In this document: positions 3,622 through 36,638 of the stretch, piece by piece
Position numbering within the stretch: the first letter of the stretch is position 1
How the letters are laid out: the number at the start of each line of letters is the position of its first letter
Source: Nakamurella sp.
Lineage (GTDB): Bacteria; Actinomycetota; Actinomycetes; Mycobacteriales; Nakamurellaceae
Assembly (NCBI GenBank): GCA_017848755.1
Contig: JAFIHI010000148.1
Span: 1-38,032, forward strand
Length of the DNA: 38,032 nt
Direction of reading: 5' to 3'
The notes under the pieces: model-generated
What the model was told of the DNA's origin: nothing
The model's input: the letters and a program-made list of their open reading frames with translations, nothing else
Databases searched by the model: none
Made by a program: the position numbers and the translations under genes

Positions 3622-3634
3622 TATGACGATGTTC
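3622..3634 (+). repeat. Copy of dispersed TATGACGNNGTTC motif
   Basis: Exact core TATGACGATGTTC followed by GCGGGCC, intergenic upstream of ald. Confidence 0.7.
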
Positions 3635-3777
3635 GCGGGCCGAACACGTCCGGAAATCGTGTGCTCCCGGGGACCGACCCCCCAAAATTCTTCACGGGAA
3701 CGCGCGCCCGATAGATATTCTTATGGGCGGTAGCAGCGCCTTGTGAGCGGTGGCCGGGTCGATGCAGGAGGCCGAAC

Positions 3778-4893
3778 ATGCGTATCGGAGTGCCGACCGA
3801 GATCAAGAACCGCGAGGGCCGGGTGGCGATGACCCCGGCCGGGGTCCATCACCTTACGCAGGCCGGGCATCGGGTGATGGTGCAGGCGGGCGCGGGAGCC
3901 GGATCGCACATCTCCGACGCGGACTATTCGGAGGCGGGTGCGCTCGTCGTGGCCGAGGCCGAGAAGGTCTGGGGCGACGCGGAACTCGTCGTCAAGGTCA
4001 AGGAGCCGATCGCGGCGGAGTACCGCTACCTGCGGAACGATCTGGTGCTGTTCACCTACCTGCACCTGGCCGCGGATCGCCGGCTCACGGAGGTGTTGCT
4101 GGAGTCCTCGGGCACCGCGATCGCGTACGAGACGGTCCAACTCCCGGACCGATCGTTGCCGCTGTTGGCGCCCATGAGCGAGATCGCCGGGCGGCTCGCG
4201 CCGCAGGTCGGTGCCTACCACCTGATGGCGAGGTCCGGCGGGCGCGGCGTGCTGCTGGGCGGGGTGCCCGGGGTGGCCGGGGCGCAGGTGGTGGTGCTCG
4301 GCGGCGGGGTCTCCGGACGGCATGCTGCGGAGATCGCGCTCGGAATGCGTGCGCACGTCACGGTTCTCGACATTTCTCCCACCGCGCTGCGGCATCTCGA
4401 CGAGCAGTTCGACGGCGCGGTCACGACGGTGGCATCCACCGCGCACGCGGTGGCGGAGCAGGTGACGCAGGCGGACCTGGTGATCGGAGCGGTGCTGATT
4501 CCCGGCGGGCGGGCCCCGCATCTGGTCGGCAACGATCTCGTGTCGCGGATGCGTCCCGGTGCCGTGCTGGTGGACATCGCCGTCGATCAGGGCGGCTGCT
4601 TCGAGGACACGCATCCGACCACGCACGACGACCCGACCTTCCGGGTGCACGACACGGTCTTCTACTGCGTGGCCAACATGCCCGGCGCGGTGCCGCGCAC
4701 CTCCACCTTCGCGTTGACGAACGCGACGCTCCCCTATGTGGCGGCCGTGGCGGACGCCGGGTGGCGGCGGGCCCTGACAGCCGATCCGGCGCTGGCAGCG
4801 GGCCTCCAGTGCCACGCGGGAACCCTGACCAACCCCGCTGTCGGCGCGGCCCACTCCATCACCGCGGTCCCGGTGGCCAGCGTCCTCGGCTGA
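3778..4893 (+). CDS. ald: Alanine dehydrogenase
   Basis: This 371-aa NAD-dependent enzyme interconverts L-alanine with pyruvate and ammonia, in the cytoplasm. The length and the [17 protein letters not shown] start are those of the family. Substrate residues are in the expected places: Arg15, Lys75 (VKVKEP), His96 (TYLHLA) and Asp270 (VDQGG). The Rossmann motif is [10 protein letters not shown] (171-180), with Asp198 at the end of the second strand marking NAD over NADP. A strong AGGAGG lies 7 nt before the ATG. It stands alone and converges on the TauE gene with a 2 bp gap and no terminator hairpin. An Lrp-type AldR commonly controls ald in mycobacteria, but no such gene is adjacent here. 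Confidence 0.97.
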
Positions 4894-4895
4894 CG

Positions 4896-5648
4896 CTAGA
4901 CCAGCAGCTTGACCACGGCGATCAAGCCGACGACCACGATCACCGCGCGCAGCACCGGCGGCGAGAGCTTGCGGCCCACCTTGGCGCCGATCAAACCGCC
5001 TATGACGGACCCGAGCGCGATCAGACCGGCAGCCGTCCAGTCGATGTGAGCACTGGCGACGAACACCACCGCAGCGACCACGTTCACCATTCCGGCGAGC
5101 AGGTTCTTCAGTGCGTTCTGCCGCTGGATCGGCTCGGCCAGCAGCAGCCCGAACAGGCCCATCAGCAGCACGCCCTGCGCCGCGCCGAAATACCCTCCGT
5201 ACACCCCCGTGCCCAGCACCAGTACCCATAACAGCGGGGTGACCGTGGCCCGCGGCGCGTGGCCGCGACGCGCGGCCCATGCCGTCAGCCGCTTGCCGAA
5301 CAACACGAGCAGAATGGCCAGAATGATCAGCACCGGCACGATCGCGTTGAACGCATCGGCCGGGAGCGTAAGGAGTAGCAGCGCTCCGATCGCGGCGCCG
5401 ACCGTGGACGCGACCAGCAGCTTGATCGCCCTGTCGCGCTGACCTTTGAGTTCCCGGCGGTAGCCCCATGCGCCGACCAGAGAGCCGGGGAAGACGCCCA
5501 CGGTGTTCGATACGTTCGCCGTCACCGGCGGCACCCCGAGCGCCACCAGGGTGGGGAAGGTGATCAACGTTCCCGACCCCACCACCGTATTGATGGTGCC
5601 CGCACCGACCCCCGCGACGAAGATCAGCGCCGCGTGCCACCAGATCAC
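4896..5648 (-). CDS. TauE/SafE-family membrane permease
   Basis: This 250-aa integral membrane protein has about eight hydrophobic segments and the two-repeat layout of the TauE/SafE family, proposed exporters of sulfite or sulfonates and other organic anions. The opening segment ([22 protein letters not shown]) and the later [17 protein letters not shown] segment are the two family signature halves. The GTG at 5648 is chosen because it overlaps the hisC2 stop as GTGA; GTG at 5663 would add five residues. Translational coupling to hisC2 implies co-expression, but no functional link is obvious. The substrate is unknown. Confidence 0.88.
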
Positions 5649-6727
5649 TCGCGCGCCGCCCACGAACGGGCCGCGGTGAGGAAGGCGTCATTCTCGGTGA
5701 CGGAGCCGATCGTGATACGGGCTCCGCCGGTGGAATCGGCGAACGGCCGGACGATCACCCCGTTCGCCTCGCAGTGCGCCGCGAATTCCCGGGCGCGCTC
5801 GCGCAGCGGCAGCCACACGAAGTTGGCCTGCGATTCCGGCACCTCGTACCCGGCCGCGCGCAGCGCCGAGAGCACCCGCCCGCGCTCGGATACCACCGTG
5901 GCGACCCGCGCATCGAGCTCCGGCCGCGCCTCCGCCGAGAGCGCCGCGACCCCCGCCGCCTGCGCGAGATCGTTGACGGCGAACGGAAGTCCGACCTTCC
6001 GGATTGCCTCGACGACGGCCTGCGCACCGATCGCGTAGCCGACCCGCAGCCCGGCCAGCCCGTACGCCTTCGATAGCGTGCGCAGGCTGACCACGTTCGG
6101 CCGGGACAACGCGTCCGGCAAACCGCGCGCCGCGTCCGGATCGGTGACGAACTCCGTGTACGCCTCGTCGACCGCGACCAGCACGCGCTCCGGCACCGCG
6201 TCCAGGAACGCGGCGAGCTCGGCGGCAGTGACCACCGTGGACGTCGGGTTGTTCGGCGTGCACACGAACACCAGTCGCGTGCGGTCCGTCACCGCGGCGG
6301 CCAGCGCCTCCAGGTCCAGGCGGTGGTCGGCGGCGACGGGCACCGTCGTCGGCACCGCGCCCACCACCTTCGTCACGATGGGGTAGGCCTCGAACGAACG
6401 CCACGGGAACAGCACGGCATCGCCGTCATCGCAGGTGGCCTGGATCAGTTGCTGGCACAGCGCTACCGAGCCGCAGCCGACGGCAATGTTCGCCGGATCC
6501 GCGCCGACGTGCGCCGCCAGCGCCTCGGACAGCGACACGGCGGCGTTGTCCGGATATCTGTTGAAGCCGCCGTTCGGCCCGGCCGCCACGACTGCCGTGA
6601 TGGCTTCGGCGACGGAAGGCAATGGCGGATAAGGCATCTCGTTCGAGGCGAGCTTCACCGCGCCCGGCACCGTGCGTCCGGGGGTGTAGGCGGGTAGTTG
6701 GGTGAGCGTTTCTCGGGTGTGGACCAT
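5645..6727 (-). CDS. hisC2: Histidinol-phosphate / aromatic amino acid aminotransferase
   Basis: This 360-aa PLP-dependent fold-type I aminotransferase resembles HisC2/Pat, which in mycobacteria acts mainly on aromatic amino acids rather than in histidine synthesis. The N-terminal KLASNEMPYPPLPSV, the NPTSTVV substrate/PLP region, DEAYTEF, the PLP lysine in TLSKAYGLAGLRVGYAIG and the C-terminal RITIGS arginine are all present. The start ATG has a GGAGG about 10 nt upstream. A location apart from the other his genes and near tyrA, tRNA-Ser and tRNA-Arg agrees with a HisC2 role. It transaminates phenylpyruvate or 4-hydroxyphenylpyruvate and so connects to tyrA and hppD later in the window. Confidence 0.9.
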   Translation of the reverse strand: MVHTRETLTQLPAYTPGRTVPGAVKLASNEMPYPPLPSVAEAITAVVAAGPNGGFNRYPDNAAVSLSEALAAHVGADPANIAVGCGSVALCQQLIQATCDDGDAVLFPWRSFEAYPIVTKVVGAVPTTVPVAADHRLDLEALAAAVTDRTRLVFVCTPNNPTSTVVTAAELAAFLDAVPERVLVAVDEAYTEFVTDPDAARGLPDALSRPNVVSLRTLSKAYGLAGLRVGYAIGAQAVVEAIRKVGLPFAVNDLAQAAGVAALSAEARPELDARVATVVSERGRVLSALRAAGYEVPESQANFVWLPLRERAREFAAHCEANGVIVRPFADSTGGARITIGSVTENDAFLTAARSWAARE

Positions 6728-6855
6728 ATGCGTAGAACCTCCGTCGTCCGCGGCTTCACGCTGAGGCTATCCTGGCGTGCCGGACGCGCGGCGCGGGCGC
6801 TGCTCGGCGCGGGCGCGCCCTGTTGCCGGCGGCGGACCTGTGATCGGATGGGGCC

Positions 6856-7593
6856 ATGAGTGATTCGATTCGGCCGGCCGACGCCGGCAATGAACGGACA
6901 ACGCGAACTACCGGAGTACACGGCGTGCCGCTGACGGCGACGGTGCCGGCCGGGGACTTTTCCGCCGGGATCGTCGTGATCCAGGACGCACTGGGTGTCG
7001 GCGATGCCCTCGCCGCGGCGACGGCCAGGCTCGCGGCGGACGGATACCTCGCCGTGGCGCCACACCTGTATCACCGCGTCGCCGAGGCGCCGGTGACGAC
7101 GTTCGACGAAGCGCGCCCACTGATGGCATCGCTCAACGGCCCGGACATGGCGCACGATATCGCCGATGCCAGAGGGTATCTCGACGCGGCAGGAATCGAG
7201 CCGGCGCACATGGGCATCGTCGGATTCTGTATGGGGGGATCGGTGTCGCTGTGGCAGGCCGCCAGCGGCGACTTCGCTGCGTCTGTCACGTTCTACGGCG
7301 GCGGGGTGTCGCAGGCCCGCTGGAAGGGCGTGCCGCCCGGGCTCGAATCCGGCGCCGCGCTCACTTGCCCCTGGCTGGGTCTGTACGGCGACAAGGACCG
7401 CTCCATCACCGTCGACGAGGTCGAAAGGCTCCGCGCTGTCGTCGGGACGACCGGGCTGCCGACGAGCATCGTGCGCTACGCGAATGCCGGGCACGCCTTC
7501 GCGCTGGATCCGCAGTCGCCGAGTTACGTGGCCGATTCCGCCGCGGACGCCTGGGGGCACGCGTTGAGCTGGTTCGACGCGCACCTTCGATAG
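6856..7593 (+). CDS. Dienelactone hydrolase family protein
   Basis: This 245-aa alpha/beta hydrolase of the dienelactone hydrolase family has no signal peptide and is probably cytoplasmic. The Cys nucleophile sits in GFCMGGS (Cys125), the acid in GDKDRSI (Asp179 or Asp181) and the base in NAGHAFAL (His213), giving the Cys-Asp-His triad of this family. The oxyanion-side strand VVIQDALGV near residues 40-48 also fits. It is divergent from hisC2 and followed 50 bp later by acetoacetyl-CoA synthetase, so the two may share a transcript. The natural substrate is not evident; most actinobacterial relatives are uncharacterised. Confidence 0.9.
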   Translation: MSDSIRPADAGNERTTRTTGVHGVPLTATVPAGDFSAGIVVIQDALGVGDALAAATARLAADGYLAVAPHLYHRVAEAPVTTFDEARPLMASLNGPDMAHDIADARGYLDAAGIEPAHMGIVGFCMGGSVSLWQAASGDFAASVTFYGGGVSQARWKGVPPGLESGAALTCPWLGLYGDKDRSITVDEVERLRAVVGTTGLPTSIVRYANAGHAFALDPQSPSYVADSAADAWGHALSWFDAHLR

Positions 7594-7643
7594 CCTTTTC
7601 GCCGGCGCGCCCGATCCAGGACGACTCGCAGAGGAACGAGGAT

Positions 7644-9620
7644 ATGAGCACACCGGAGATCTGTTGGCAGCCGTCCGCCGAGCAGATCGCGCAGGCGAAT
7701 ATGACGAAATTCGCCGCCTTTCTCGCGTCGCGAACCGGGCGCTCGTTCCCGGATTATGGCTCGCTATGGGACTTCTCGGTGAGCGACCTCGCCGGGTTCT
7801 GGGGCGGGCTCGCCGAGTACGCCGGGGTGCACTGGCACGATCGGCCGACCGAGGTGCTGGCTGATGCGTCGATGCCCGGAGCGTGCTGGTTCCCGGGCGG
7901 CACGCTCAACTATGCGGAGCACGCGCTCGCCTTCGGCGGAGATCGGGATCCGGCAGAGATCGCCGTGATCGAAACCGACGAATCCGGTTTCGAGCGACAG
8001 GTCTCGATCGGCGAGCTGCGGGCGATGGTCCGCGCGGCCCAGACCGGGCTCGTGCGGATGGGGGTGGGCGCCGGCGATCGCGTCGTCGCGCTGGCCCCCA
8101 ACCGGCTGGAGGCGCTGGTGGCGTTCCTGGCGACGGCAGCGCTCGGGGCGGTCTGGTCCTCCTGCTCGCCGGATTTCGGGGCGCTGTCGGTGATCGACCG
8201 GTTCACGCAGATCTCGCCGAAGGTGCTGATCGCCGTGGACGGATATGTCTACGGCGGCAAGGAGTTCGATACGTCGGCCACGGTGGCGACGCTGCGGGAG
8301 GCGCTGCCGGACCTAGCCGGAGTCGTGCACATCCCTGCGCTCGGCAGCACCGCGCCGGCCGGGGCGATCTCTTGGGCGGAGTTCACCGCGCAGGCCGCGG
8401 AGCCGCGCTTCACCGCGGTCGAGTTCTCCGCCCCGCTGTGGGTGCTGTACTCGTCGGGCACCACGGGACTGCCCAAACCGATCGTGCAATCCGTCGGCGG
8501 GATCCTGCTCGAGCACGTGAAAATGCTTCGGCTGCACCAGGATCTAGGCCCCGGAGACCGGTTCTTCTGGTTCTCCACCACCGGCTGGATGATGTGGAAC
8601 TACCTGATCGGCGGTCTGTTGGTGGGGGCCACGGTCGTGCTGGACGACGGCAACCCCGGCCCGCCCGACCTGATGACGCTCTGGCGGCTCGCGGCCACAC
8701 ACCGGATCGGCACCGTCGGCGTGTCGGCCGCCTTCATCCACGCCTGCCGGGCGGCGGGGTTGGGGCCTTCGGACGAGCTCGACGTCTCGTGTGTCCGGGT
8801 GGTCGGGTCCACCGGATCCCCGCTCTCCGCAGCGGGTTTCGACTGGATCATGGAACACATCGGGCCGCAGGTCCAGATCGCATCGGTCTCGGGCGGAACG
8901 GACCTGTGCACCGCGATGGTTGCGGCGTCGCCCACGGTTCCGGTGTGGCGCGGCGAGATCTCGGTGCGGGCGCTCGGCGCGAAGGTCGAAGCGTACGACG
9001 CCGCGGCGCGGCCCGTGGTGAACGAGGTCGGCGAGCTCGTCCTGACGGCACCCATGCCGTCCATGCCGGTCTTCCTCTGGGGCGACACCGACGGAAGCCG
9101 TTTGCGCAGTGCCTATTTCGAATACTTCCCGGGGGTGTGGCGGCACGGCGACTGGATCCGGATCACCGATCGGGGGTCGGTGGTGATCGAGGGTCGCTCC
9201 GATGCGACGCTCAATCGCGGCGGGGTGCGGATGGGTACGGCCGAGTTCTACCGCGTCGTCGAGGATGTGGACGGCATCACGGACTCGCTGGTGGTCGACA
9301 CCTCGACGCCCGACGGGGAGGGCGACCTGATCCTGTTCGTCGTGCTCGCCGACGGCGCGGACGCGGATACTGCGGCCACCGAAGTGAAAAGCGCCATTCG
9401 CAGCGAACTCTCGCCGCGACACGTCCCCGGGAAGGTGATCCCGGTGCCGGCCGTCCCGCGCACCCTGAATGGCAAGAAGTGCGAGGTCCCCGTGAAACGC
9501 ATTCTGGCGGGAGCCGATGTGGCACAGGCGATCTCACGCGATGCGCTCGCCGACCCGGCTGCCTTCGACGCGTTCCTCGCGGCCGCGCGTGCGGCGCACG
9601 CGGCGCGGGTGGGCGCATGA
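7644..9620 (+). CDS. Acetoacetyl-CoA synthetase
   Basis: This 658-aa adenylate-forming ligase makes acetoacetyl-CoA from acetoacetate, ATP and CoA. It has the family's WFPGGTLNYAEHAL entrance, the AMP-binding loop LYSSGTTGLPKPIVQS, the substrate region FFWFSTTGWMMWNYL, the hinge ITDRGSVVIEGRSDATLNRGGVR and the C-terminal lysine in TLNGKKCEVPVK. The length is typical (about 650-680 aa). Its ATG is preceded by GAGGAACGAGGAT. Its substrate is an end product of the homogentisate pathway encoded at 31-36 kb, so a link to tyrosine or ketone-body use is plausible, although the genes are far apart. Its stop overlaps the start of the downstream lipoprotein gene (ATGA). Confidence 0.93.
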   Translation: MSTPEICWQPSAEQIAQANMTKFAAFLASRTGRSFPDYGSLWDFSVSDLAGFWGGLAEYAGVHWHDRPTEVLADASMPGACWFPGGTLNYAEHALAFGGDRDPAEIAVIETDESGFERQVSIGELRAMVRAAQTGLVRMGVGAGDRVVALAPNRLEALVAFLATAALGAVWSSCSPDFGALSVIDRFTQISPKVLIAVDGYVYGGKEFDTSATVATLREALPDLAGVVHIPALGSTAPAGAISWAEFTAQAAEPRFTAVEFSAPLWVLYSSGTTGLPKPIVQSVGGILLEHVKMLRLHQDLGPGDRFFWFSTTGWMMWNYLIGGLLVGATVVLDDGNPGPPDLMTLWRLAATHRIGTVGVSAAFIHACRAAGLGPSDELDVSCVRVVGSTGSPLSAAGFDWIMEHIGPQVQIASVSGGTDLCTAMVAASPTVPVWRGEISVRALGAKVEAYDAAARPVVNEVGELVLTAPMPSMPVFLWGDTDGSRLRSAYFEYFPGVWRHGDWIRITDRGSVVIEGRSDATLNRGGVRMGTAEFYRVVEDVDGITDSLVVDTSTPDGEGDLILFVVLADGADADTAATEVKSAIRSELSPRHVPGKVIPVPAVPRTLNGKKCEVPVKRILAGADVAQAISRDALADPAAFDAFLAAARAAHAARVGA

Positions 9621-10642
9621 CGCGCAGCTCGTCGCCGCGGAGGTTCCGGGCTCTCGGGGTTCGCGGGGCGTACGTGGTGGCTGCGCTGCTCACCGCGTTT
9701 CTCGCATCCGCGTGCGGGTCGGCTCCCGGCGCGGTCGATCAGGCGGCCAGTTCGGTGGGGCCTGTCACGTCCACGGCGCCACCGAGTATGACGAGGTTCA
9801 CGCCAGGCCCTGTCCCTGGATCCGTGCTCGTCACGGTGCCCGAGCTGACCGCGGCGGGGGCGCCGGACACCGGAACGGCTGCGGACCGGAACACCGTCAT
9901 ACCCGGATCGGCAGGCTCGACGGCACCCCCCACAGCCGATACGACGGGCGAAACAGCCGACGCCGTCACGGATCTCACTGCCGTTCCCACTGCTGGGTCC
10001 ACGGCGGGGGTCGGCGGATCGGCGCCGGTGCGGCCACCGCCGCCGCCGACGTCCGCCGCATCCCCGCGGTCCGCACCGCCGTCCGCGCAACCCGGACCGC
10101 CGAATCCCGTCACGGTCGACCTGACGCGCTGCCCGGGATGCACCGTGATCGCGGCGCACGCCGACGTCGCAGGGTCGCTCTCCGCCGCATTGGCGACCGC
10201 TCCGGGCGGCGCCGTGCTACTCGCGGCGAAGCCCACCGGCACCATCGTCGGGGCGATGAATGTGCCGTACGGCGTGACCTTTCCGGCACCCGCCGGCGGA
10301 GTTCTTCCGTGCGACACGTCCGGCAGATGCTTCGTTCTCGCGACGCAGCATGGCGGGAACAGCGTCATCTCCGCATTCGCTCTCGGCTCGGACGGAAGCT
10401 GGCGGGACGTCACCGCGTCCGGCGGATTCCGCTCCGACACGCCCATCGGCGCCGTGGCCGACGTCACCGGGGACGGGCTGCTGGATGTCGCCGTGCAGGC
10501 GTCGGTGGCGGGCCGGGCCGTTTGGCGTGTCCTCGTCTGGTCGGGCGACGGGTTCGCCGTGCTGGGTTGTGCGCCGGCGACGGACAGCGCGTCCGCCGTG
10601 CCACCCGCCGCGCGGTTGTCGCCGGCCGCCTGCCCGGCCTGA
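9617..10642 (+). CDS. Secreted lipoprotein, proline/threonine-rich, function unknown
   Basis: The predicted protein of 341 aa begins with an Arg-rich stretch, a hydrophobic helix and the lipobox LASAC (Cys about residue 33), so it should be lipidated and surface-anchored. Residues of about 40-170 are a low-complexity Pro/Ala/Thr/Ser linker. The C-terminal part of about 170 aa is folded-looking. It has cysteine pairs (CPGC; CDTSGRC) and a DVTGDGLLDVAV stretch like the calcium-binding turn of FG-GAP/VCBS repeats. The start overlaps the synthetase stop by 4 nt, so the genes are coupled. A copy of the dispersed TATGACGNNGTTC motif lies inside the linker-coding part. No characterised homologue is recognised. 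Confidence 0.8.
   Translation: MTRSSSPRRFRALGVRGAYVVAALLTAFLASACGSAPGAVDQAASSVGPVTSTAPPSMTRFTPGPVPGSVLVTVPELTAAGAPDTGTAADRNTVIPGSAGSTAPPTADTTGETADAVTDLTAVPTAGSTAGVGGSAPVRPPPPPTSAASPRSAPPSAQPGPPNPVTVDLTRCPGCTVIAAHADVAGSLSAALATAPGGAVLLAAKPTGTIVGAMNVPYGVTFPAPAGGVLPCDTSGRCFVLATQHGGNSVISAFALGSDGSWRDVTASGGFRSDTPIGAVADVTGDGLLDVAVQASVAGRAVWRVLVWSGDGFAVLGCAPATDSASAVPPAARLSPAACPA
9889..9901 (-). repeat. Copy of dispersed TATGACGNNGTTC motif
   Basis: Exact core on the minus strand (plus strand GAACACCGTCATA followed by CCCGG), inside the low-complexity linker of the lipoprotein gene. Confidence 0.65.
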
Positions 10643-10650
10643 GGTGAGCG

Positions 10651-14419: not shown

Positions 14420-14432
14420 TATGACGCTGTTC
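14420..14432 (+). repeat. Copy of dispersed TATGACGNNGTTC motif
   Basis: Exact core within CCGGG...GCCGCG, in the gap between the convergent EthD-like and Lrp genes. Confidence 0.7.
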
Positions 14433-15015: not shown

Positions 15016-15050
15016 ATCGAGTATGACGAAGAATCTTCGTCATACTCGAT
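15016..15050. promoter_or_regulatory. 17 bp perfect palindrome between divergent genes
   Basis: Perfect inverted repeat ATCGAGTATGACGAAGA / TCTTCGTCATACTCGAT with a 1 nt centre. It lies 39 bp from the Lrp start and 32 bp from the PLP gene start, so it is a likely Lrp-type operator. Its arms contain TATGACG, the 5' half of the dispersed repeat, placed head-to-head. Confidence 0.6.
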
Positions 15051-16449: not shown

Positions 16450-17097
16450 TCAATCGAAAAGCGTGGGCGCCTCTGGGGTTTCGCGATCCGGGTATGACGC
16501 AGTTCGGCGGCGGGCGGGTTCGTTGATCTCTGGGCCGGGGGGCTGCGTGCCCACCGATCGTCCCGTCGCTTGCTCCGCCGGTCGCCCCGCTGTGAGCACG
16601 TCGCGCCCGGTCCGCCCGGCGCCCGCGATGCCAGGGCCCGGGTCAGGGGCACGGCCTGCTTGATACGCGCACGCCGCGCCGTTGGCCAGCCGGTCGGCCT
16701 GCTCGTTCAGCCCGTGCCCCGCGTGCCCCCGCACCCAACGGAAGTCGATCCGCCGCCCCGCGGCGCGAGCCTTCGTCATCTCAGCATCCAAGGCCTGCAG
16801 CAGTTCGAGGTTCGCGATCGGCTTCCCGTCGGCCTTCCGCCAGCCGCGCCTCTTCCACCCGGGCATCCATTCCGTGATGGACTTGATGGCGTACTGACTG
16901 TCGCAGCAGATGACGAGATCCTCTGCCAGGTGCGATGTTTGGCGCAGGAGGTCGAGCACGGCCGTGAGCTCGCCCTGGTTGTTGGTGCCGTGCGGCCACC
17001 CGCCGGCAGCCCATCGGTCGGCATCGATGTACCAGCCCCACCCGGCTGGCCCGGGGTTGCCGAGCGCGGAGCCGTCGGCGCCGGCGGTGATCGTCAC
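16450..17097 (-). CDS. rnhA: Ribonuclease HI with C-terminal extension
   Basis: RNase HI cleaves the RNA strand of RNA-DNA hybrids. All catalytic residues are present when counted from the GTG at 17097: Asp8 (ADGS), Glu43 (NNQGELTAV), Asp66 (CDSQYAI), His125 (RGHAGHG) and Asp135 (EQADRLA). The catalytic domain ends near residue 140. The remaining 75 aa are a Pro/Gly/Ala-rich tail ending TLFD, without the acid-phosphatase domain of mycobacterial RNase H fusions. GTG at 17103 is an alternative start; AGGA upstream favours 17097. The last part of the gene contains a copy of the dispersed repeat. The CRISPR-like repeats lie just upstream. Confidence 0.92.
   Translation of the reverse strand: MTITAGADGSALGNPGPAGWGWYIDADRWAAGGWPHGTNNQGELTAVLDLLRQTSHLAEDLVICCDSQYAIKSITEWMPGWKRRGWRKADGKPIANLELLQALDAEMTKARAAGRRIDFRWVRGHAGHGLNEQADRLANGAACAYQAGRAPDPGPGIAGAGRTGRDVLTAGRPAEQATGRSVGTQPPGPEINEPARRRTASYPDRETPEAPTLFD
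16493..16505 (+). repeat. Copy of dispersed TATGACGNNGTTC motif
   Basis: Exact core (TATGACGCAGTTC) with CCGGG before it and a GC-rich tail after it, overlapping the non-catalytic C-terminal tail of rnhA. Confidence 0.65.
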
Positions 17098-17148
17098 GCG
17101 CACGATCCTGCCACGTGCTCGCCCGCGAGCGGTGAACGGCGTCATCTC

Positions 17149-20645: not shown

Positions 20646-20687
20646 CCCGTGAACACCGTCATAGTCGACTATGACGCTGTTCACGGG
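20646..20687. terminator. 42 bp near-perfect palindrome made of two inverted repeat copies
   Basis: Arms of 21 nt with one mismatch and no spacer (left CCCGTGAACACCGTCATAGTC). Each arm is one exact TATGACGNNGTTC copy (minus 20651-20663, plus 20670-20682), head to head. It lies 16 bp after the gdhA stop and 53 bp upstream of psuK, so it can act as the gdhA terminator. It resembles a REP-type pair. Confidence 0.6.
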
Positions 20688-20702: not shown

Positions 20703-26835
<6,133 letters not shown>

Positions 26836-27758: not shown

Positions 27759-28877
27759 ATGACGGATCGCGCGACCCCGGCCGGTTGCCCGCCGCCGGAT
27801 TCGACCTCGGAGATGACGTCGTTCGGCGCCGCACCGGCTCCGGAGGGCGATGCGCGGGTACGGTTCGCTGGGGTGTTGCGGCGCGGTGGGGTGTTCGTCG
27901 CTCTGGTGGTGGCCGCCGGGGTCGTGGCCGTGGTGGTGGGGTCGGCGATCACCGAGCCGTCGGTGATCGCCGGCCTGGTCCCCGGCCCGCTGGTGCGGTA
28001 CGGCATCCCGGTCGCCCGCGTGCTGCTCGATTTCGGCGCCGCGGCCGCGGTCGGCTTGGCGCTGGTGCCGAAACTGCTGGGCTTCGACCGGCCGGAGCGC
28101 ACCGAACCCGTGTTGGCGCCCGCCCGTCGGTACGCGGCGTGGGCCTCGGCGCTCTGGACGGTGACGGCGCTGGCGTCTGTCGTGCTGCTGACCGCCGAGC
28201 TCGCGCCCGGCGAGGTCGTGACGCCGGCCGCCGTGTGGCGTTACATCGGGTCGATCGCGGCGGGCAAGGGTCTGATGCTGTCGGCCGTATGCGGCGCGAT
28301 CTCGTGGTGGCTTTCGCGGCTGTCCGTCCGGCATGGGGAGAAGGTTCCGGCGGAATTACGTGCCGGCGTGGCCCTTTTCGGCCTGCTGCCGTTGCCGCTC
28401 ACCGGGCACGCGTCGAACTGGTACTACCACGACCTGTCCATGGTGTCGATGGAGCTGCACGTGACCGGGTCGGCCGCCTGGGCGGGCGGTCTGGCCGCGA
28501 TCGTGCTGCTGCTCGCCCGGCACCGGGATCTGCTCGCCGAGGCGCTGCCACGGTTCTCGAAGCTCGCGACCTGGTGCGTGTTCGTGGTCGGGCTGTCCGG
28601 GATCGCGAACGGACTGATCGAGCTGTACCTGTCGCCGATCACGACACTGCCGTCGTCGCTGTGGGAAACGCGTTACGGCGTCCTGATTCTCGCGAAGGCT
28701 CTGTGTCTCGCAGCGGTCACGCTCATCGCGATCCACGTCCGCCGGCGGATCATGCCGGCACTCGCCACGGGCCGGCGGGCCCCGTTCGCCGCGTGGTGCG
28801 GATGGGAGGTGACGGTGCTCGCCGTGGCGTTCGCCGTGGCCGTGGTGCTCACCCGCGCCGAGGTTGCGCCGTTCTGA
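27759..28877 (+). CDS. CopD-family copper-resistance membrane protein
   Basis: This 372-aa protein has nine or so hydrophobic helices and the CopD domain in its second half (LLPLPLTGHASNWYYHDLSMVSMELHVTGSAAWAGGLAAIVLL), with the conserved histidines and Trp of that family. CopD proteins move copper across the membrane. In many mycobacteria CopD is fused to a C-terminal CtaG/caa3-assembly domain; this protein stops after CopD. The first 30 aa are a polar cytoplasmic lead. It shares a 62 bp divergent gap with the DUF1089 gene. No CopC partner is next to it. Confidence 0.88.
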   Translation: MTDRATPAGCPPPDSTSEMTSFGAAPAPEGDARVRFAGVLRRGGVFVALVVAAGVVAVVVGSAITEPSVIAGLVPGPLVRYGIPVARVLLDFGAAAAVGLALVPKLLGFDRPERTEPVLAPARRYAAWASALWTVTALASVVLLTAELAPGEVVTPAAVWRYIGSIAAGKGLMLSAVCGAISWWLSRLSVRHGEKVPAELRAGVALFGLLPLPLTGHASNWYYHDLSMVSMELHVTGSAAWAGGLAAIVLLLARHRDLLAEALPRFSKLATWCVFVVGLSGIANGLIELYLSPITTLPSSLWETRYGVLILAKALCLAAVTLIAIHVRRRIMPALATGRRAPFAAWCGWEVTVLAVAFAVAVVLTRAEVAPF

Positions 28878-28923
28878 GGCGGTGCCGCTCTGGCGCCCTT
28901 GGGCTCGCGTAGCCTGTTATGTC

Positions 28924-28958
28924 TTGCACAACAGTGAGTTGTGTCTTACACTTCTGGC
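28924..28958 (+). promoter_or_regulatory. Promoter and operator of the BrnT/RHH-like operon
   Basis: TTGCAC (28924-28929), 17 nt spacer, TACACT (28947-28952), then 6 nt to the GTG start, so the message is leaderless. Inverted repeat CACAAC-AGTGA-GTTGTG (28927-28943) fills the spacer and suits repression by the ribbon-helix-helix partner. Confidence 0.7.
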
Positions 28959-29237: not shown

Positions 29238-29580
29238 GACGACCGACTACGCGGAGCTCGCCGAGTGGGCGGAAAACGAGATGCAGCTGCGAGAGGGCTC
29301 GACTACGGCACGCCGCGGCCGCGCAGCTGCGGCCAAGGGCCGCGCCGCGCTGGAGGCGGCGCTCGGCGGGCCAGCCGCGGTCGAACGTGCCATTCGTGGT
29401 GGTCGCCCGCCGCTCGACCCGGATGCCAGACCCGGTCAGCATTCGCGCAGCCGCACCATCAGACTGACCACGGACCTCAACGACCGGCTCGACGCCCTCG
29501 CCACCGAACAGCACCGCAGGCCCAGCGACATCATGCGGGAAGCGCTGGCCGACTATCTGAAACGGCATCGCGCCAGCTGA
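29230..29580 (+). CDS. Ribbon-helix-helix (CopG-type) antitoxin
   Basis: This 116-aa protein has a C-terminal ribbon-helix-helix (residues of about 76-113: SRTIRLTTDLNDRLDALATEQHRRPSDIMREALADYLKRH) and an Ala/Arg-rich N-terminal region with RGRAAAAKGRAALEAALGG, probably the toxin-neutralising part. In most antitoxins the RHH domain is N-terminal, so the order is reversed here, as in BrnA-like proteins. ATG 29230 has GAAGG upstream. It overlaps the toxin stop and probably represses the operon through the palindrome at 28927-28943. Confidence 0.85.
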   Translation: MSKTTDYAELAEWAENEMQLREGSTTARRGRAAAAKGRAALEAALGGPAAVERAIRGGRPPLDPDARPGQHSRSRTIRLTTDLNDRLDALATEQHRRPSDIMREALADYLKRHRAS

Positions 29581-29610
29581 CGTGGGGTCGCTCGTGGCGC
29601 GGTCGGGGCG

Positions 29611-30891
29611 TCAATTCTCGGCGGACACTCGGTCCGGCTCGTCGAATCCGGCGAGATAACCCTGTGCATTGCGGCGCGGCTCCGGCGCGTAGACCACCGT
29701 CTGTGCCGGCGGTCGGGGTGTGGTCAATCCGACCGTGCGCTGCGCGAACATCGTCATACCCGCCCAGGTGACGGCGAGAAGCAGTGCGGCCCACCACCAC
29801 GAGGTCCAGTCGACGGGCGGGGTGTGCAGGTTCGCGCCGGCGGCGTGAGCGGCTCGCATCTCGTCGATCGACAGCTTCGCGAGATCGATCGGGGTGCCCT
29901 CCGCGACGGTCTGCAGCAGCAGCGCGCCGTAGCCGGCCGCCGTGACGAGCGCAGCACCCAGGGCCGCGCGCACATACGGATTTGCCGGGATCACGAACGC
30001 GAGATCGACCGCGAGACCTATGGCGAGCAGCCAGAACGGGGCCGACGACGGCGGGAAGATCGTGTAGTAGAGCACCGGCCAGATCAGCATGCGATAGGCG
30101 ACGTACGCCCCCGCGACGACGGTGGCGGTCCAGACCCGGCCGACGAGGATGCGCGTGAGAACCAGCACTGCGGCGCACAGGGCGATGGTCCACACCGGGT
30201 AGACCCACGCCGGGATGGGCAGCGAGAAATGCTGCACGGCAACGGCATCGACGGGATGGCCGATCTGCTTCGCGGCGAAAGCGAGCAGACTCGGCTCGGC
30301 GTAAGGCTTCCCGTCGAAGAAGGCGCTGATCGAGAGGATCCCGTACTCCTGCTGGTAGTTCGGGAAGAAGGCGTTCTCGAACATGAATGCGCCGAAGGCG
30401 GTGAGGCCGGCCGTGTACTGCCAGGCGAAGCGCCCGGCGCGCGGGTAGTTGATCCACCAGTTGCGCCACACGCCGGCGATCATGATCGCCGTCCCCGTAT
30501 AGAGCAGCATGTGCGACGGCGACCAGGACGTGATGTCCAATCCGTTGATGCGGTGGTTGATCACATCGATCGGACCGGCAATCACGAACACGATGGTGCC
30601 GGTTTGGATGATGCGCAGGCTCCGGCGATCCGCGCCGTACCCGGTGAACGTGTGCACGAGCACGAGAACGATCGCGATGCCGGTGCCGACGGTGTTGAGC
30701 AGGTGCGGCGGGGCGAAGTCGTCGCGGATCCATTTGAAATGCCAGGAGACGTCCCAGGAGGAGCCCAGCAGCTTGAATGCGAACGCGACCAGCCACCAGC
30801 GCAGCATCAGGACGGTAGCGGACTCGGGCGTCGGACGTCCCGGAACGCCGCGGGTCCAGTAGGTGCGCAGGAATGCGGCCAGGCGTTGCAT
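29611..30891 (-). CDS. Multipass membrane protein of unknown function
   Basis: This 426-aa protein has about ten transmembrane helices. Unusual conserved-looking polar residues lie within or next to them: DVSWHFKWI, APPHLLNTVGTG, DVINHRINGLDITSWSPSHMLLYTG and the VLYYTIFPPSSAPFW stretch. Several buried histidines suggest a metal, heme or quinone ligand, and copD lies nearby, but nothing more specific can be claimed. The hydrophilic C-terminus (about 45 aa) is cytoplasmic or disordered. ATG 30891 lies 8 nt after TAGACT, so the mRNA may be nearly leaderless; an in-frame TTG at 30900 is less likely. I know no characterised family match. Confidence 0.85.
   Translation of the reverse strand: MQRLAAFLRTYWTRGVPGRPTPESATVLMLRWWLVAFAFKLLGSSWDVSWHFKWIRDDFAPPHLLNTVGTGIAIVLVLVHTFTGYGADRRSLRIIQTGTIVFVIAGPIDVINHRINGLDITSWSPSHMLLYTGTAIMIAGVWRNWWINYPRAGRFAWQYTAGLTAFGAFMFENAFFPNYQQEYGILSISAFFDGKPYAEPSLLAFAAKQIGHPVDAVAVQHFSLPIPAWVYPVWTIALCAAVLVLTRILVGRVWTATVVAGAYVAYRMLIWPVLYYTIFPPSSAPFWLLAIGLAVDLAFVIPANPYVRAALGAALVTAAGYGALLLQTVAEGTPIDLAKLSIDEMRAAHAAGANLHTPPVDWTSWWWAALLLAVTWAGMTMFAQRTVGLTTPRPPAQTVVYAPEPRRNAQGYLAGFDEPDRVSAEN
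29746..29758 (-). repeat. Copy of dispersed TATGACGNNGTTC motif
   Basis: Exact core (plus strand GAACATCGTCATA then CCCGCC), inside the membrane-protein gene where it encodes part of its last hydrophobic segment (AGMTMFAQ). Confidence 0.6.
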
Positions 30892-30993
30892 GGGGCCCAA
30901 GTCTAGGCGATCGGGTGATCTTCGCTGGGGTTCGTGCGGCGTCGCGGGGCGGCGTCACCGAGCGGCGTTACCGGAGTCCCGGGACGGGGCCGG

Positions 30994-31467
30994 TCATCGC
31001 TCCCGGGCGGCGGCGTGCACCAATGGCCCTGTGCGGTAGGCGATCTCCTGCGTCAGCGAGATGACGGTGGACGTGCGCAGCACCGACTCGTCCGACACCA
31101 CCAGGTCGATCACGCGCTGCAGGTCGGTGTTGTCGCGGGCGACCAGCCGCACCCAGATGTCGGTGCCGCCGGTGACGGTGTGCGCCTCGATCACCTCGGG
31201 TATGCCGGTGAGGTGGGACACCACGGCGTCGCGGCCCTGATGCTGCGCGATCTCGAGGGAGAGGAAGGCCGTCACCGGGAAGCCGAGGGCGGACGGATCG
31301 ATCTGCGGTGCGAGGTCGTGGATCACGCCGGTACGCTGCAGCTTGTCGAGCCGCGCCTGCACGGTGCCGCGTGCCACGTGCAAACGGCGGGACGCCTCCA
31401 GGACGCCGACGCGTGGCTCGGCGGCGAGCAGGTCCAGCAAACGGACATCCAAGCTGTCGATCGGCAT
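30994..31467 (-). CDS. Lrp/AsnC regulator divergent from hppD
   Basis: This 157-aa protein has the N-terminal helix-turn-helix LDVRLLDLLAAEPRVGVLEASRRLHVARGTVQARLDKLQRTGVIHD and a RAM effector domain with HTVTGGTDIWVRLVARD. Length and architecture are standard. It is divergent from hppD across 162 bp, an arrangement common for tyrosine-catabolism genes in actinobacteria, so an aromatic amino acid or keto acid is the likely effector. The stop TGA is at 30994. Confidence 0.92.
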   Translation of the reverse strand: MPIDSLDVRLLDLLAAEPRVGVLEASRRLHVARGTVQARLDKLQRTGVIHDLAPQIDPSALGFPVTAFLSLEIAQHQGRDAVVSHLTGIPEVIEAHTVTGGTDIWVRLVARDNTDLQRVIDLVVSDESVLRTSTVISLTQEIAYRTGPLVHAAARER

Positions 31468-32877
<1,410 letters not shown>

Positions 32878-32892
32878 AATCGTTTATGATGG

Positions 32893-34161
32893 CTATGACG
32901 ATGTTCGTGGGCCGGGCCGTGCTTGCCCCGGTAAACCCGCGTCGGCGCGCGCCGGCAGGACAGTGCCGCTGACGGAGCCCAGCTCGATGCGCCCTCCCGA
33001 GATCGACGGCGCCGTCGCGACAATCGTGACGGTGTCGCCGTCTTCCAGGAATGTGCGGGTGGATCCGTCGGCCAGGCGCACCGGGTCCCGCCCGCCGCGC
33101 GACAGCTCGATGAACGAGCCCACCTGGTCCGCGGCCGGGCCGGAGATGGTGCCCGACGCGTAGAGATCGCCTGGCCGAACGGTGGCGCCGTTGATCGTGG
33201 TGTGCGCGAGCATCTGCGCGCCGGTGTAGTACATCGACGCGTACGGCGGCTTCGAGACCACCGTGCCGTTCCACTCGATTTCGAGCGAGATATCAAGCCC
33301 CCACGGCTCTTCCGGATCGTCGGCGAGATAGTCGAGCAGCGCCACCGTGCGCGGCGGGGGCGGGACGCGCGCCGACCCCAGGGCGGCCAGCGGGGTGATC
33401 CACGGCGAGATCGACGTGGCGAACGATTTGCCCAGGAATGGCCCCAGCGGCACGTACTCCCAGGCCTGGATGTCCCGCGCGCTCCAGTCGTTGAGCAGCG
33501 TGACGCCGAACACGGTGTCCGCGAAAGCCGCTGCGGGAACCGGGGTCCCGAGCTCCGAGCCGGTGCCCACCACGTACGCCAGCTCCGCCTCGATGTCGAG
33601 CCGCGCGGTCGGCCCGAAGGTGGGCCGGTCGTCGTCGGGTCCACGTCGCTGTCCGCACGGCCGGACGATCGGTGTCCCGGAGATCACGACCGTCTGCGAC
33701 CGGCCGTGGTACCCCACCGGCAGATGCTTCCAGTTCGGCAGCAGCGGTTCCGCGTCCGGGCGGAACAGCCGCCCCAGGTTCGAGGCGTGGTGCTCGCTCG
33801 CGTAGAAGTCGACGTAGTCGCCGACCCGGAACGGCATCTCCATGGTGACGGCATCGATCGGCAGCAGATTCGGCTCGACCATCGCCCGGTGCCCGGGGTC
33901 GGTGAGGACCGTGGTAAGCCAGTCGCGTGCAAAGGCCCAGACGCGCGGACCTGCCGCGAGAAACGGCTCCAGCGAAGGTTTGTGCCACAGCCCCGCGACG
34001 TTCATGCCCCCGGCCGCGGCGGCAGGCCCCGCGGAGAGCACGAACTCGCCGATGCGCACGCCGACGCTCGGCTCGGAGCCTTCGGCGCGGAACACGCCGA
34101 ACGGCAGGTGATCTGCACCGAACCCGGACCCGGCGGCGCCCGGCACCCAACTGGCTGTCAT
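32893..34161 (-). CDS. Fumarylacetoacetase
   Basis: This 422-aa enzyme hydrolyses fumarylacetoacetate to fumarate and acetoacetate. Metal and catalytic residues are all in place: Asp in GDYVDFYASEHHASN with the catalytic His, Glu-x-Glu in LDIEAELAYVVG, Asp in LLNDWSARDIQAWEYVPLGPFLGKSFATSISPW, and the Lys of GKSF. The start overlaps the upstream gene's stop as TGATG, so the two are coupled. The last residues (ARPGPRTSS) and the stop codon are encoded by a copy of the dispersed repeat: TCGTCATAG supplies Ser-Ser-stop. The repeat therefore sets the C-terminus. It converges on hppD with a 15 bp gap. Confidence 0.97.
   Translation of the reverse strand: MTASWVPGAAGSGFGADHLPFGVFRAEGSEPSVGVRIGEFVLSAGPAAAAGGMNVAGLWHKPSLEPFLAAGPRVWAFARDWLTTVLTDPGHRAMVEPNLLPIDAVTMEMPFRVGDYVDFYASEHHASNLGRLFRPDAEPLLPNWKHLPVGYHGRSQTVVISGTPIVRPCGQRRGPDDDRPTFGPTARLDIEAELAYVVGTGSELGTPVPAAAFADTVFGVTLLNDWSARDIQAWEYVPLGPFLGKSFATSISPWITPLAALGSARVPPPPRTVALLDYLADDPEEPWGLDISLEIEWNGTVVSKPPYASMYYTGAQMLAHTTINGATVRPGDLYASGTISGPAADQVGSFIELSRGGRDPVRLADGSTRTFLEDGDTVTIVATAPSISGGRIELGSVSGTVLPARADAGLPGQARPGPRTSS
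32894..32906 (+). repeat. Copy of dispersed TATGACGNNGTTC motif at gene end
   Basis: Exact core (TATGACGATGTTC then GTGGGCCGGGCC), lying between hppD and the fumarylacetoacetase gene and supplying the stop codon of the latter. A half-copy, TTATGATGG, precedes it. Confidence 0.7.
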
Positions 34162-35144
34162 CACGGCGTCCCTTCGGTGGGTATTGCTGTCGGACCGGTC
34201 GACGGCACCGGCGCGATTCGCGGAATCACGCCGAGGTCGGCGAGTTCCGCGAGCGGTTCGAGGACACCGCAACAGCCGAACGAGGCGAAGACCGACCGCA
34301 CGGCCAGTGCTTGGGCTCGCGTGAGCGACAGTGCTTCGGCCGCAAGGCGATCGGCGTCACGGCGCATCAGGGTGCGGACAAGTGCGCGGCCCGGAACGTC
34401 GTCATAGTCGGGTGTTCGGAGCGCGGCGTGGACCGCGGCGATGATGTTGAGGACACCGTATTGGCGGCTGCCGCCCGGGCCGTGCGGACCGGTGACAGCG
34501 TGGTGCAGCCCGGCGGTGAACTTGACGGGTAGCCGGAGGCGCGCTGCCGCGGCGATCACCGCGGCCAGCGCGTCGGCGGGCGGGGAGTCGGCCGGACCGG
34601 TGCCGCCGGTGCGGAACTTCCCGCGGACGTCCCGGCCGGTCGCCTCGCGAGCGGCGACGATCGATCGTAAGGCGAGATCTGGTGCTGTGTTGTCGATCTC
34701 GACGGAGATGTGCTGCGCTGCGGGAAGGGTCCCGGTGAGCGCGGCAACGGTGCCGGTCGCATCGGTCGCGCCCGCCGGCAGCGCGATCTCGACGCCGACC
34801 ACGCGCAACCCCGCGGTGTGCGCGAGACCGCTGACGGCGTCGCGCATGTCGGCAAGGCGATCTCCGCGCCGGTTGATCAGGACCACGTCGAAGGTGCCGT
34901 CGGGCTCGGCGTCACGGTCGATCAGCGGCGGGAGCTGGCGCCAGAGCGCCGAGCGCAGCAGGAACGGCCCGACGTAGCGGCTGGTCGCCGATCGCCGGAT
35001 GTCGCGGTGCCGGGCGACGGCGACGTCCAGCGGGGCCAGGCCGGGCGGAAAGATCGCCGCGTCGTCGATCAACCCGTCAAAGAGGACGTGGGAGAGAGCA
35101 CTACTGTCCGGTCTTCGGGAAGCAGGGTCGTCCGCACTGGACAC
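34161..35144 (-). CDS. Uncharacterised protein of the homogentisate cluster
   Basis: This 327-aa soluble protein has an opening VLFDGLIDDAAIFPPGLAPLDVAVARHRDIR and later RYVGPFLLR, GVEIALPAG, KFRTGGTG and LPVKFTAGLHHAV. The pattern recalls proteins of unknown function in Streptomyces and relatives, with alternating strands and helices like a TIM barrel. GTG 35144 is chosen because GGAGGT lies 7 nt upstream; an ATG-like start at 35186 lacks this. Its stop overlaps the start of the fumarylacetoacetase gene (TGATG), so the two are translated together and it probably acts in tyrosine catabolism. A copy of the dispersed repeat lies inside the gene. I cannot name a reaction. Confidence 0.8.
   Translation of the reverse strand: MSSADDPASRRPDSSALSHVLFDGLIDDAAIFPPGLAPLDVAVARHRDIRRSATSRYVGPFLLRSALWRQLPPLIDRDAEPDGTFDVVLINRRGDRLADMRDAVSGLAHTAGLRVVGVEIALPAGATDATGTVAALTGTLPAAQHISVEIDNTAPDLALRSIVAAREATGRDVRGKFRTGGTGPADSPPADALAAVIAAAARLRLPVKFTAGLHHAVTGPHGPGGSRQYGVLNIIAAVHAALRTPDYDDVPGRALVRTLMRRDADRLAAEALSLTRAQALAVRSVFASFGCCGVLEPLAELADLGVIPRIAPVPSTGPTAIPTEGTP
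34394..34406 (-). repeat. Copy of dispersed TATGACGNNGTTC motif
   Basis: Exact core (plus strand GAACGTCGTCATA then GTCGGG, preceded by CGGCCCG), inside the uncharacterised gene where it encodes PDYDDVPGR. Confidence 0.65.
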
Positions 35145-35317
35145 TCTGCCCACCTCCTGCCGGGATTCGCGCGGCGATCTGTTCAATCGTGGAACACTTT
35201 TAGTGACGTCTTGACACGTCCCCCAGCGTAGCGAATGGTCAATACAGGGAACACATCAGTTGATGCGATACCGCAGTTGATCAGATACCGCAGCACGCCC
35301 CGACGAGGGAGAGCGAC
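35145..35317. promoter_or_regulatory. Divergent control region of the fumarylacetoacetase operon and hmgA
   Basis: Contains two near-identical boxes, GCGATACCGCAG and AGATACCGCAG, about 17 bp apart (35268-35292), each close to a TTGAT, plus a CTTGACACG on the plus strand near 35210 that could be a -35 for hmgA. These are candidate binding sites for a tyrosine-catabolism regulator. Confidence 0.45.
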
Positions 35318-36559
35318 ATGGCCTACTACCGCAGCGTCGGCGAGATCCCGCCGAAACGTCACACCCAGTTCCGGGCGCCGGACGGAACGCTCTACGCCGA
35401 GGAGCTGATGGGGGAGGAGGGCTTCTCCTCCGATTCCTCCCTGCTGTACCACCGGCGCAACACCTCGGCCATGGTCGACGCGCGCGTCTGGGACCTGCCG
35501 GACCTGGCGACGACGCCGAACCATCCGCTGAAGCCACGGCACCTCAAGCTGCACGACCTGTTCCCGGGGTCTGCGCCCGGTGCCGGAATCGACGCGGTGA
35601 CGGGTCGCCGGCTGGTGCTCGGCAATGGCGACGTGCGCATCGGCTACGTGGTGTGCGACACGCCAAGCCCGTTGTACCGCAACGCGATCGGTGACGAGTG
35701 CGTGTTCGTCGAGGCTGGTGCGGCGACCGTCGAAACCGTCTTCGGCGCGCTGACCGCGCGGCAGGGTGACTATGTGCTGATCCCGCGGGCGACAGTGCAC
35801 CGGTGGGTGCCGGACACCTCGGACCCCGCGGTCGGACCGCTGCGGCTGTACGTGATCGAGGGCAACAGCCATATCGGTCCGCCCAAGCGGTATCTGTCGA
35901 GATTCGGCCAGCTGCTGGAACATTCGCCGTACTGCGAGCGCGATCTGCACGGGCCTGCCGAGCCGCTGCTCGCGGCGGAGGCGGACGCCGAGTCGGATAC
36001 CGAGGTGTACGTCAAGCACCGGGGCAACGGCCCGTCCGGCGTGGTCGGGTCGATCGTCGTGTCGCCGCACCACCCGTTCGACGTGGTCGGCTGGGACGGC
36101 TGCCTCTACCCGTACACGTTCAACGTCGCGGATTTCGAGCCCATCACTGGGCGGATCCACCAGCCGCCGCCGGTGCACCAGGTGTTCGAGGGGTGGGGCT
36201 TCGTGGTGTGCAACTTCGTGCCGCGGAAGGTCGACTACCACCCGCTGTCGATCCCGGTGCCGTACTACCACTCCAACGTCGACTCGGACGAGATCATGTT
36301 CTACGTCGACGGAGACTACGAGGCGCGCAAGGGGTCTGGGATCGGCAAAGGGTCGATCAGCGTGCATCCCGGGGGGCACTCGCACGGTCCGCAGCCGGGC
36401 GCCGTGGAGGGTGCGATCGGCAAGCATTACTTCGACGAGCTGGCCGTGATGATCGATACCTTCCGCCCGCTGGAGCTCGGCGAGGGCGGTCTCGCGGCGG
36501 ACGACGGGCGCTATGCGTGGTCGTGGTCCGGGCGCGGCCCGGGAGGGCCTATCGGCTGA
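35318..36559 (+). CDS. hmgA: Homogentisate 1,2-dioxygenase
   Basis: This 413-aa Fe(II) enzyme opens the homogentisate ring to maleylacetoacetate. Iron ligands of the family are visible: His and Glu in YYHSNVDSDEIMFY and His in SVHPGGHSHGPQPG. The cupin core VLIPRATVHRW and PFDVVGWDGCLYPYTFNVADFEPITGR also fit. GAGGGAGAG precedes the ATG. It is divergent from the fumarylacetoacetase operon. A maleylacetoacetate isomerase gene, needed between this step and fumarylacetoacetase, is not in the window. Confidence 0.97.
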   Translation: MAYYRSVGEIPPKRHTQFRAPDGTLYAEELMGEEGFSSDSSLLYHRRNTSAMVDARVWDLPDLATTPNHPLKPRHLKLHDLFPGSAPGAGIDAVTGRRLVLGNGDVRIGYVVCDTPSPLYRNAIGDECVFVEAGAATVETVFGALTARQGDYVLIPRATVHRWVPDTSDPAVGPLRLYVIEGNSHIGPPKRYLSRFGQLLEHSPYCERDLHGPAEPLLAAEADAESDTEVYVKHRGNGPSGVVGSIVVSPHHPFDVVGWDGCLYPYTFNVADFEPITGRIHQPPPVHQVFEGWGFVVCNFVPRKVDYHPLSIPVPYYHSNVDSDEIMFYVDGDYEARKGSGIGKGSISVHPGGHSHGPQPGAVEGAIGKHYFDELAVMIDTFRPLELGEGGLAADDGRYAWSWSGRGPGGPIG

Positions 36560-36625
36560 GCCGGAACATGCCCCCACCGAGTGCGCCCCGCCGGGCCATC
36601 ACGGTGAGACACGCGCCCGGGCAAC

Positions 36626-36638
36626 GAAAGTCGTCATA
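36626..36638 (-). repeat. Near copy of dispersed motif downstream of tyrA
   Basis: Plus strand GAAAGTCGTCATA then CTCGAT, one mismatch from the core, beginning 5 bp after the tyrA stop (minus strand) and preceded by CGCGCCCGGG. Confidence 0.55.

Follow-up and report, generated by a model that had tools for sequence, protein, structure and literature searches.

A short word of 13 bases, TATGACGNNGTTC, occurs in 11 exact copies within a 38,032-nucleotide stretch of a Nakamurella sp. genome (assembly GCA_017848755.1, contig JAFIHI010000148.1, positions 1 to 38,032; contig C44 here; hereafter the window). It was found that this motif is dispersed in hundreds of copies over the genomes of two sister species. 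I read the repeat as an uptake sequence that evolved independently in this actinobacterial lineage, with a probability of roughly 0.6 as judged from the sequences. The initial annotation had offered three readings: a mobile repeat, an uptake or chromosome-organising signal, and a regulator site. The second class is supported, with an uptake sequence as its best fit, while the first and the third are not supported.

In the proposed mechanism, a putative sequence-specific receptor, most likely in the type IV pilus/ComEA path, would favour free DNA carrying CGRGTATGACG(A/C)TGTTCNCGG. Motif-bearing fragments would enter through ComEC and recombine into the chromosome, and motif-bearing alleles would tend to displace motif-free alleles. 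Such a drive could accumulate hundreds of copies via point mutation in permissive DNA, with the core kept intact. I infer that the cells are competent, that their uptake is biased towards the motif, and that a receptor exists. This reading is favoured because the features by which DNA uptake sequences (DUS) and uptake signal sequences (USS) are recognized were found here, and none of the tested rivals explains them together.

Abundance and anatomy of the motif

All ten exact cores that had been annotated in the window were recovered at their positions and strands, and an eleventh (9787, plus strand) had been overlooked. When up to two mismatches are allowed, the window holds 27 matches against a shuffle mean of 6.5, and none of 100 shuffles reached 27. 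The window's own genome (G000; 3.85 Mb in 259 contigs) has 516 copies, 272 on the plus strand and 244 on the minus strand, while the reversed-pattern control gave 3. In the congener 'Actinobacteria bacterium 69-20' (G010), 555 copies were counted (272/283 by strand), with a control count of 0. The stretches sampled from the two genomes, 541 kb of 3.85 Mb for G000 and 578 kb of about 4.5 Mb for G010, contain 66 and 94 exact copies, respectively, where an order-3 Markov model expects 0.17. The densities in these stretches are biased, since many of the stretches come from contigs known to hold copies; the whole-genome counts are unbiased. A comparison with a third-order Markov expectation had been proposed in the initial annotation, and the observed numbers lie several hundredfold above it. 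In word counts of G000 and G010, the 10- and 12-letter pieces of the motif and its gapped forms top both lists.

The anatomy of the motif was derived from 160 exact copies. The word is not palindromic, and its core has 11 fixed bases: it reads TATGACG, A or C at position 7 (81%), T at position 8 (76%), and GTTC. The longer shared context that had been described is real and consists of conserved flanks at positions -4 to -1 and 14 to 16. Upstream, position -4 is C and -3 is G (96-97%), -2 is A or G (85%), and -1 is G (68%), and downstream there are C (63%), G (72%), and G (64%). No clear signal was seen outside about -6 to +18. The common one-mismatch forms have the first T replaced by G or C, G9 replaced mostly by A, or T10 or T11 replaced mainly by C; changes at other positions are uncommon. 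Forms altered within ATGACG (positions 1 to 6 pooled) are rare, with 6 in the G000 stretches and 5 in the G010 stretches.

In the two bearers, one-mismatch forms are in about 12- and 15-fold excess, two-mismatch forms in 2.1-fold excess, and three-mismatch forms in 1.2- to 1.3-fold excess. Over the same mismatch range, three motif-less congeners gave ratios of 0 to 1.3. The exact-match ratios in this mismatch comparison use a floored expectation, and the model value is the 0.17 given above. According to PMC1939737, such a mismatch curve is known for uptake sequences and was read there as gradual accumulation via point mutation.

The strand counts of both genomes show no polarity. Adjacent copies in the stretches of the two species lie on the same strand in 40 cases and on opposite strands in 65. 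Close inverted pairs explain only part of this excess of opposite-strand neighbours (65/105, p 0.02).

Confinement to two sister species

Copies were counted in 61 genomes, 17 of the genus and 44 others of the order, and only G000 and G010 are enriched. Fourteen of the other 15 congeners have 0-2 copies and the fifteenth has 5 (control 2), while the 44 genomes outside the genus have 0 to 6 copies each. When 298 genomes of the order were searched with the longer pattern ATGACGNTGTTCNCGG, G000 yielded 143 copies, G010 yielded 149, and each of the remaining 296 yielded at most 3. Among the matches listed in contigs of named genomes, from which those of the window's own genome may be missing, 69 of 73 stretches come from 'Actinobacteria bacterium 69-20', and the other four lie in genomes with 2-6 copies. 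The motif is confined to two sister species among the 17 genomes of the genus examined. The DNA identity of G000 and G010 is 90-92% in the window region, and that of the listed matches of other congeners is 65-83%.

Two further candidates were rejected. An Actinomycetes bin considered as a third bearer has 3 copies against 2 in the control. Carriage of the motif by phages was dismissed, as viral contigs gave single matches only (32 stretches with one match each, a raw count without a chance expectation).

Conservation and turnover of single copies

G000 stretches were mapped to G010 through anchors, and the sequences of both were compared. Of 26 anchors, 19 have one clear place in G010, one has a partial place (L190), one has multiple places (L181), and five have none (L117, L118, L184, L193, and L197). 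Since L184 (5 copies) and L197 (3 copies) are motif-rich, a stretch was not taken to be mobile merely for lacking a place in G010.

Among the 54 G000 copies aligned in G010, the core is intact in 41, carries one or two substitutions in 10, and has an indel in 3. In the opposite direction, the core is intact in 41 of 56 aligned G010 copies, while 11 have one substitution and 4 have an indel. This comparison (41/54 and 41/56) includes 30 G000 and 69 G010 loci that had been fetched for holding the motif. When only partner stretches not chosen by the motif are considered, 39 of 50 G000 copies are intact, compared with 375 of 1010 (37%) for the same template moved along the flanks (p 2e-8). The corresponding values for G010 copies are 39 of 54 against 35% of the slid templates (p 6e-8). 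For control words of matched composition, the intact fraction is 96 of 198. With the same partners, 0 of 282 ATGACG positions are changed from the G000 side and 3 of 300 from the G010 side. In the 51 cases that align without gaps, no change falls in any of the six columns of ATGACG, while spacer column 7 has 13 changes and most flanking columns have 3-9.

Divergence is raised beside the copies. In coding sequence it is 10% at 16-100 bases from a copy against 7-8% beyond 250 bases, and in noncoding sequence it is 12.5% near the copies against 8-10%. Thus, the sites lie in permissive, fast-evolving DNA in which the core is held.

Copies are gained and lost mainly by substitution, and near copies form a graded halo around the motif. 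For the copy at 29746, eight orthologues from motif-poor congeners align without gaps at its codons and have residues that exclude the motif. Thus, the copy in this gene (29611-30900) arose without insertion. For the copies at 23395 and 34394, this comparison says nothing, as both fall in variable segments that align with gaps. The TAT and GTT codons in the motif are kept in 17 of 21 cases against 444 of 770 elsewhere, which is a weak difference (p 0.04).

Placement relative to genes and acquired DNA

By crude gene calls, 29 of 66 copies in G000 and 53 of 94 in G010 are noncoding, 36 and 40 are genic, and one more in each genome lies on a gene edge. The initial annotation had placed the copies mainly in intergenic gaps, at gene 3′ ends, or in variable protein segments; the proportion between genes is about half, which is still a 2-3-fold over-representation relative to the noncoding share of the stretches (21% in G000 and 18% in G010). 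This noncoding share is overestimated because the crude calls miss real genes, such as the glutamate dehydrogenase gene at 20703-22118. The genic copies have both orientations, with 32 on the same strand as the gene and 44 on the opposite strand. The intergenic copies are found in gaps of all three kinds, whether divergent, tandem, or convergent. Neighbour pairs within 120 bases are inverted in 7 of 8 cases, two of them counted in both species.

The motif is scarce in recently acquired DNA. There is one copy in the 54-kb contig C21 of G000, which encodes a conjugative coupling protein, a secretion ATPase, and a transposase-type integrase. Three G010 stretches related to C21 (52 kb) also have one copy, against about 6.4 expected. 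The conjugative-element DNA of both species (106 kb) contains 2 copies against 13.7 expected, where C21 was singled out for its low count, its G010 relatives were fetched later, and a fourth stretch with a weak relationship (L222, one copy) was excluded. Species-specific insertions defined by rule (3 in G000 and 8 in G010; 41.7 kb) hold 1 copy against 6.4 expected. As for the element itself, C21 (L117, L118, and L181) has relatives in C14, C13, and C41 of G010 (L219-L221) with a DNA identity of about 68-82%, and it is nearly motif-free.

Pilus and competence genes

Contig C236 of G000 has a type IV-a pilus locus encoding two PilM-like proteins, PilB, PilT, PilC, a main prepilin, and two further proteins with a prepilin-type start. 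PilN and PilO are likely to be present in this locus, as assigned by position only. The same locus is found in G010 (C17, L148). ComEC is encoded in all 17 congeners. In G000, a ComEA-type protein is encoded directly before ComEC; it scores above the cut-off of TIGR00426 and below that of the longer comE model. The confirmation of ComEA applies to G000, and the evidence for G010 covers the pilus locus and ComEC.

A PilT above the cut-off together with prepilins was found in 5 of the 17 genomes (G000, G010, G001, G005, and G011), and type IV-a pili are patchy across the genus. Between G000 and G010, the identity is 95-97% for PilB, PilT, PilC, and one PilM against only 64% for the main pilin, as if the pilin were fast-evolving or had been swapped. 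One minor prepilin is 94% identical. Since the main pilin reaches only 64%, my guess is that this minor prepilin would be the likelier carrier of a shared specificity. Two possible pilus-tip adhesins are also encoded in the G000 pilus locus (C236; L147 9260-18658), namely a prepilin-like protein carrying Ig-like domains and, farther along, one that has a ricin-type lectin domain.

Weighing the uptake reading and its alternatives

Several observations weigh against an uptake sequence. Three pilus-bearing congeners (G001, G005, and G011) lack the motif, and no substitute dispersed word was found in 118-kb samples of each; other dialects were considered there and rejected, the strongest words being local repeats or weak. 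The association between pilus and motif is by itself weak (p about 0.07 under an independence of the genomes that does not hold). The main pilin of G000 scores 22.4 bits against the ComP_DUS model, under the cut-off of 27.3, and that of G010 scores 16.1. Pilins of the motif-less G005 (18.8) and G011 (16.5) match as well, and because of this the ComP_DUS match was dropped as evidence. No strongly basic receptor pilin was found in the pilus locus. Homogenisation near the copies was tested and the opposite was found, as divergence is not lowered around them. In addition, close inverted pairs are few, and the motif, at one copy per 7.5 kb, is less dense than the Neisseria DUS.

The best-surviving alternative, which I consider unlikely but worth keeping in view, is a site bound by a lineage-specific protein for chromosome organisation or segregation, with copies that are distributed over the chromosome and individually maintained by selection. 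Such a site would equally predict a core conserved amid permissive flanks and a low number of copies in mobile DNA, and the sharp intolerance of ATGACG to change resembles a protein site. Chromosome-organising proteins are usually conserved, whereas the motif is restricted to two of the 17 species examined. Neither the lack of polarity, nor the genic position of about half of the copies, nor the graded halo of near copies suits this reading. A polar signal like the FtsK-orienting polar sequences (KOPS) was rejected, because KOPS should be polar and the strand counts are not; no such polarity along replichores was seen among neighbouring copies (40 same-strand and 65 opposite-strand).

Much less probable is a Chi-like recombination hotspot read by a resident nuclease of the RecBCD/AddAB/AdnAB type, although the word is abundant, conserved, lineage-specific, and chromosomal. 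Known Chi sites have 5-8 bases and are usually orientation-biased, while this motif has 11 fixed bases plus conserved flanks and shows no polarity. Moreover, the congeners lack it. KOPS and Chi are both over-represented chromosomal words read by DNA-processing machines. The motif resembles them in this over-representation and differs in being longer and without polarity, KOPS and Chi being shorter and oriented.

A role in regulation, for example as an operator or as a terminator of transcription, is quite improbable. The 2-3-fold over-representation of noncoding copies would suit it, as would the hairpin made by the pair behind the glutamate dehydrogenase gene. It is disfavoured because operators and terminators should not lie inside genes in both orientations, and 36/66 and 40/94 of the hundreds of copies do so. 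The intergenic copies occur in every gene arrangement, no T-run follows the hairpin, and the flanks are fast-evolving.

The poorest fit is an insertion-spread mobile repeat of the repetitive extragenic palindrome (REP) or bacterial interspersed mosaic element (BIME) kind, which is largely refuted: hundreds of dispersed copies, some in close inverted pairs with strong stem-loops, would recall one, but an inserted repeat should show insertions, whereas the shared sequence ends at about 25 bp, indels account for 3/54 and 4/56 orthologous comparisons against 10 and 11 with substitutions, and a genic copy aligns ungapped with eight motif-less orthologues. REP and BIME elements are dispersed, partly palindromic in arrangement, and enriched between genes. 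The motif shares these traits and lacks both a repeat unit beyond the site and an insertion signature.

Comparison with known systems

The highly iterated palindrome HIP1 of cyanobacteria is a lineage-limited short word that is abundant also in genes, palindromic, and far denser. The motif is likewise lineage-limited and also genic, but it is non-palindromic and sparser.

As an uptake sequence, the motif would resemble the DUS of Neisseriaceae, which occur as dialects and are recognized by the receptor ComP. In both cases, there are hundreds of dispersed words of 10-13 bases on both strands, with a required inner core, tolerated outer positions, permissive placement, and some inverted pairs capable of forming stem-loops. 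A low density in genomic islands and genes for a type IV-a pilus and ComEA/ComEC are also common to both. According to PMC3630211, DUS occupy permissive regions, often as inverted pairs able to form stem-loops. PMC7371117 gives a DUS density in Neisseria of one per 0.4-1.1 kb and a drastic drop of this density in neisserial genomic islands. The two systems differ in that the sequences are unrelated, the phylum is another one, and the density here is about 10 times lower. No receptor of the ComP family was identified, the best ComP_DUS match being the 22.4 bits mentioned above against the cut-off of 27.3.

The USS of Pasteurellaceae share with the motif a core plus less conserved flanks, and it has been proposed that they accumulated gradually via point mutation (PMC1939737). 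The USS sequence is unrelated and belongs to another phylum, and the flanks of USS are A/T-rich while those of the motif are C/G-rich. The consensus of the motif is unrelated to the DUS and USS cores given in PMC6370729 and PMC1939737.

According to PMC7811141, two families among the competent bacteria tested, Pasteurellaceae and Neisseriaceae, have a strong preference for short motifs. No uptake sequence in an actinobacterium was found in titles and abstract starts of the literature, a coverage outside of which lie subscription journals and preprints. I lean, a little beyond even odds, towards the view that sequence-specific DNA uptake arose independently a third time, in Actinomycetota and with a receptor other than ComP. 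If this is right, the system would be the third of its kind and in a new phylum, DUS-like in its working without being a member of a neisserial or pasteurellacean family. Pilus-based competence would then be able to lead repeatedly to the self-tagging of DNA, which would no longer be peculiar to two families of Gram-negative bacteria. The molecular-drive account of uptake sequences would be put to the test by a third case that differs in sequence, phylum, and pilus. Since the motif is present in two sister species and absent from 15 congeners (three of them piliated), the origin of the motif and its receptor could be compared within one genus.

Copies in the window

Two of the exact copies form a head-to-head inverted pair behind the glutamate dehydrogenase gene, at 20651..20663 (minus; retained in G010) and 20670..20682 (plus). 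As had been annotated, the arms face each other, and they form a strong stem-loop (-36.5 kcal/mol, z -5.8). No terminator-like T-run was found behind this hairpin.

Five further exact copies lie on the plus strand. The copy at 3622..3634 lies between called genes. The previously overlooked copy at 9787..9799 and the copy near a gene 3′ end at 14420..14432 retain their core in G010. The copy at 16493..16505, within a called gene and near its 3′ end, has a retained core and an altered spacer in G010. The copy at 32894..32906, at the extreme 3′ end of a minus-strand gene (32893-34272), has one core change in G010. Another plus-strand copy (23395..23407) is located in a variable segment of a long gene (22051-26835), called helicase-like from reading the sequence, and its first T is C in G010. 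The same change is seen in G010 for the minus-strand copy at 9889..9901. The remaining minus-strand copies are at 29746..29758, in the gene whose eight ungapped congener orthologues cannot encode the motif there, and at 34394..34406, in a gene (34161-35186) where the core is retained in G010.

The near copies that had been annotated at 17134, 26447, and 36626 are present with one mismatch each. The first (17134..17146, minus) has G for the first T, an over-represented variant that is also found at 10357..10369 (minus) and 27812..27824 (plus). The second (26447..26459, minus) has C for the first T, and G010 has an exact copy there with a 9-base length difference. The third (36626..36638, minus) has T for G9. 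A one-mismatch form with A at G9 (7700..7712, plus) corresponds to an exact copy at the same place in G010. The half-sites described at 15022/15038 were seen only as a two-mismatch match at 15032-15044. Apart from the motif, 44-base units that have a dyad-like core were seen repeated in tandem in the congener G011 (C2; L164 12443-12623).

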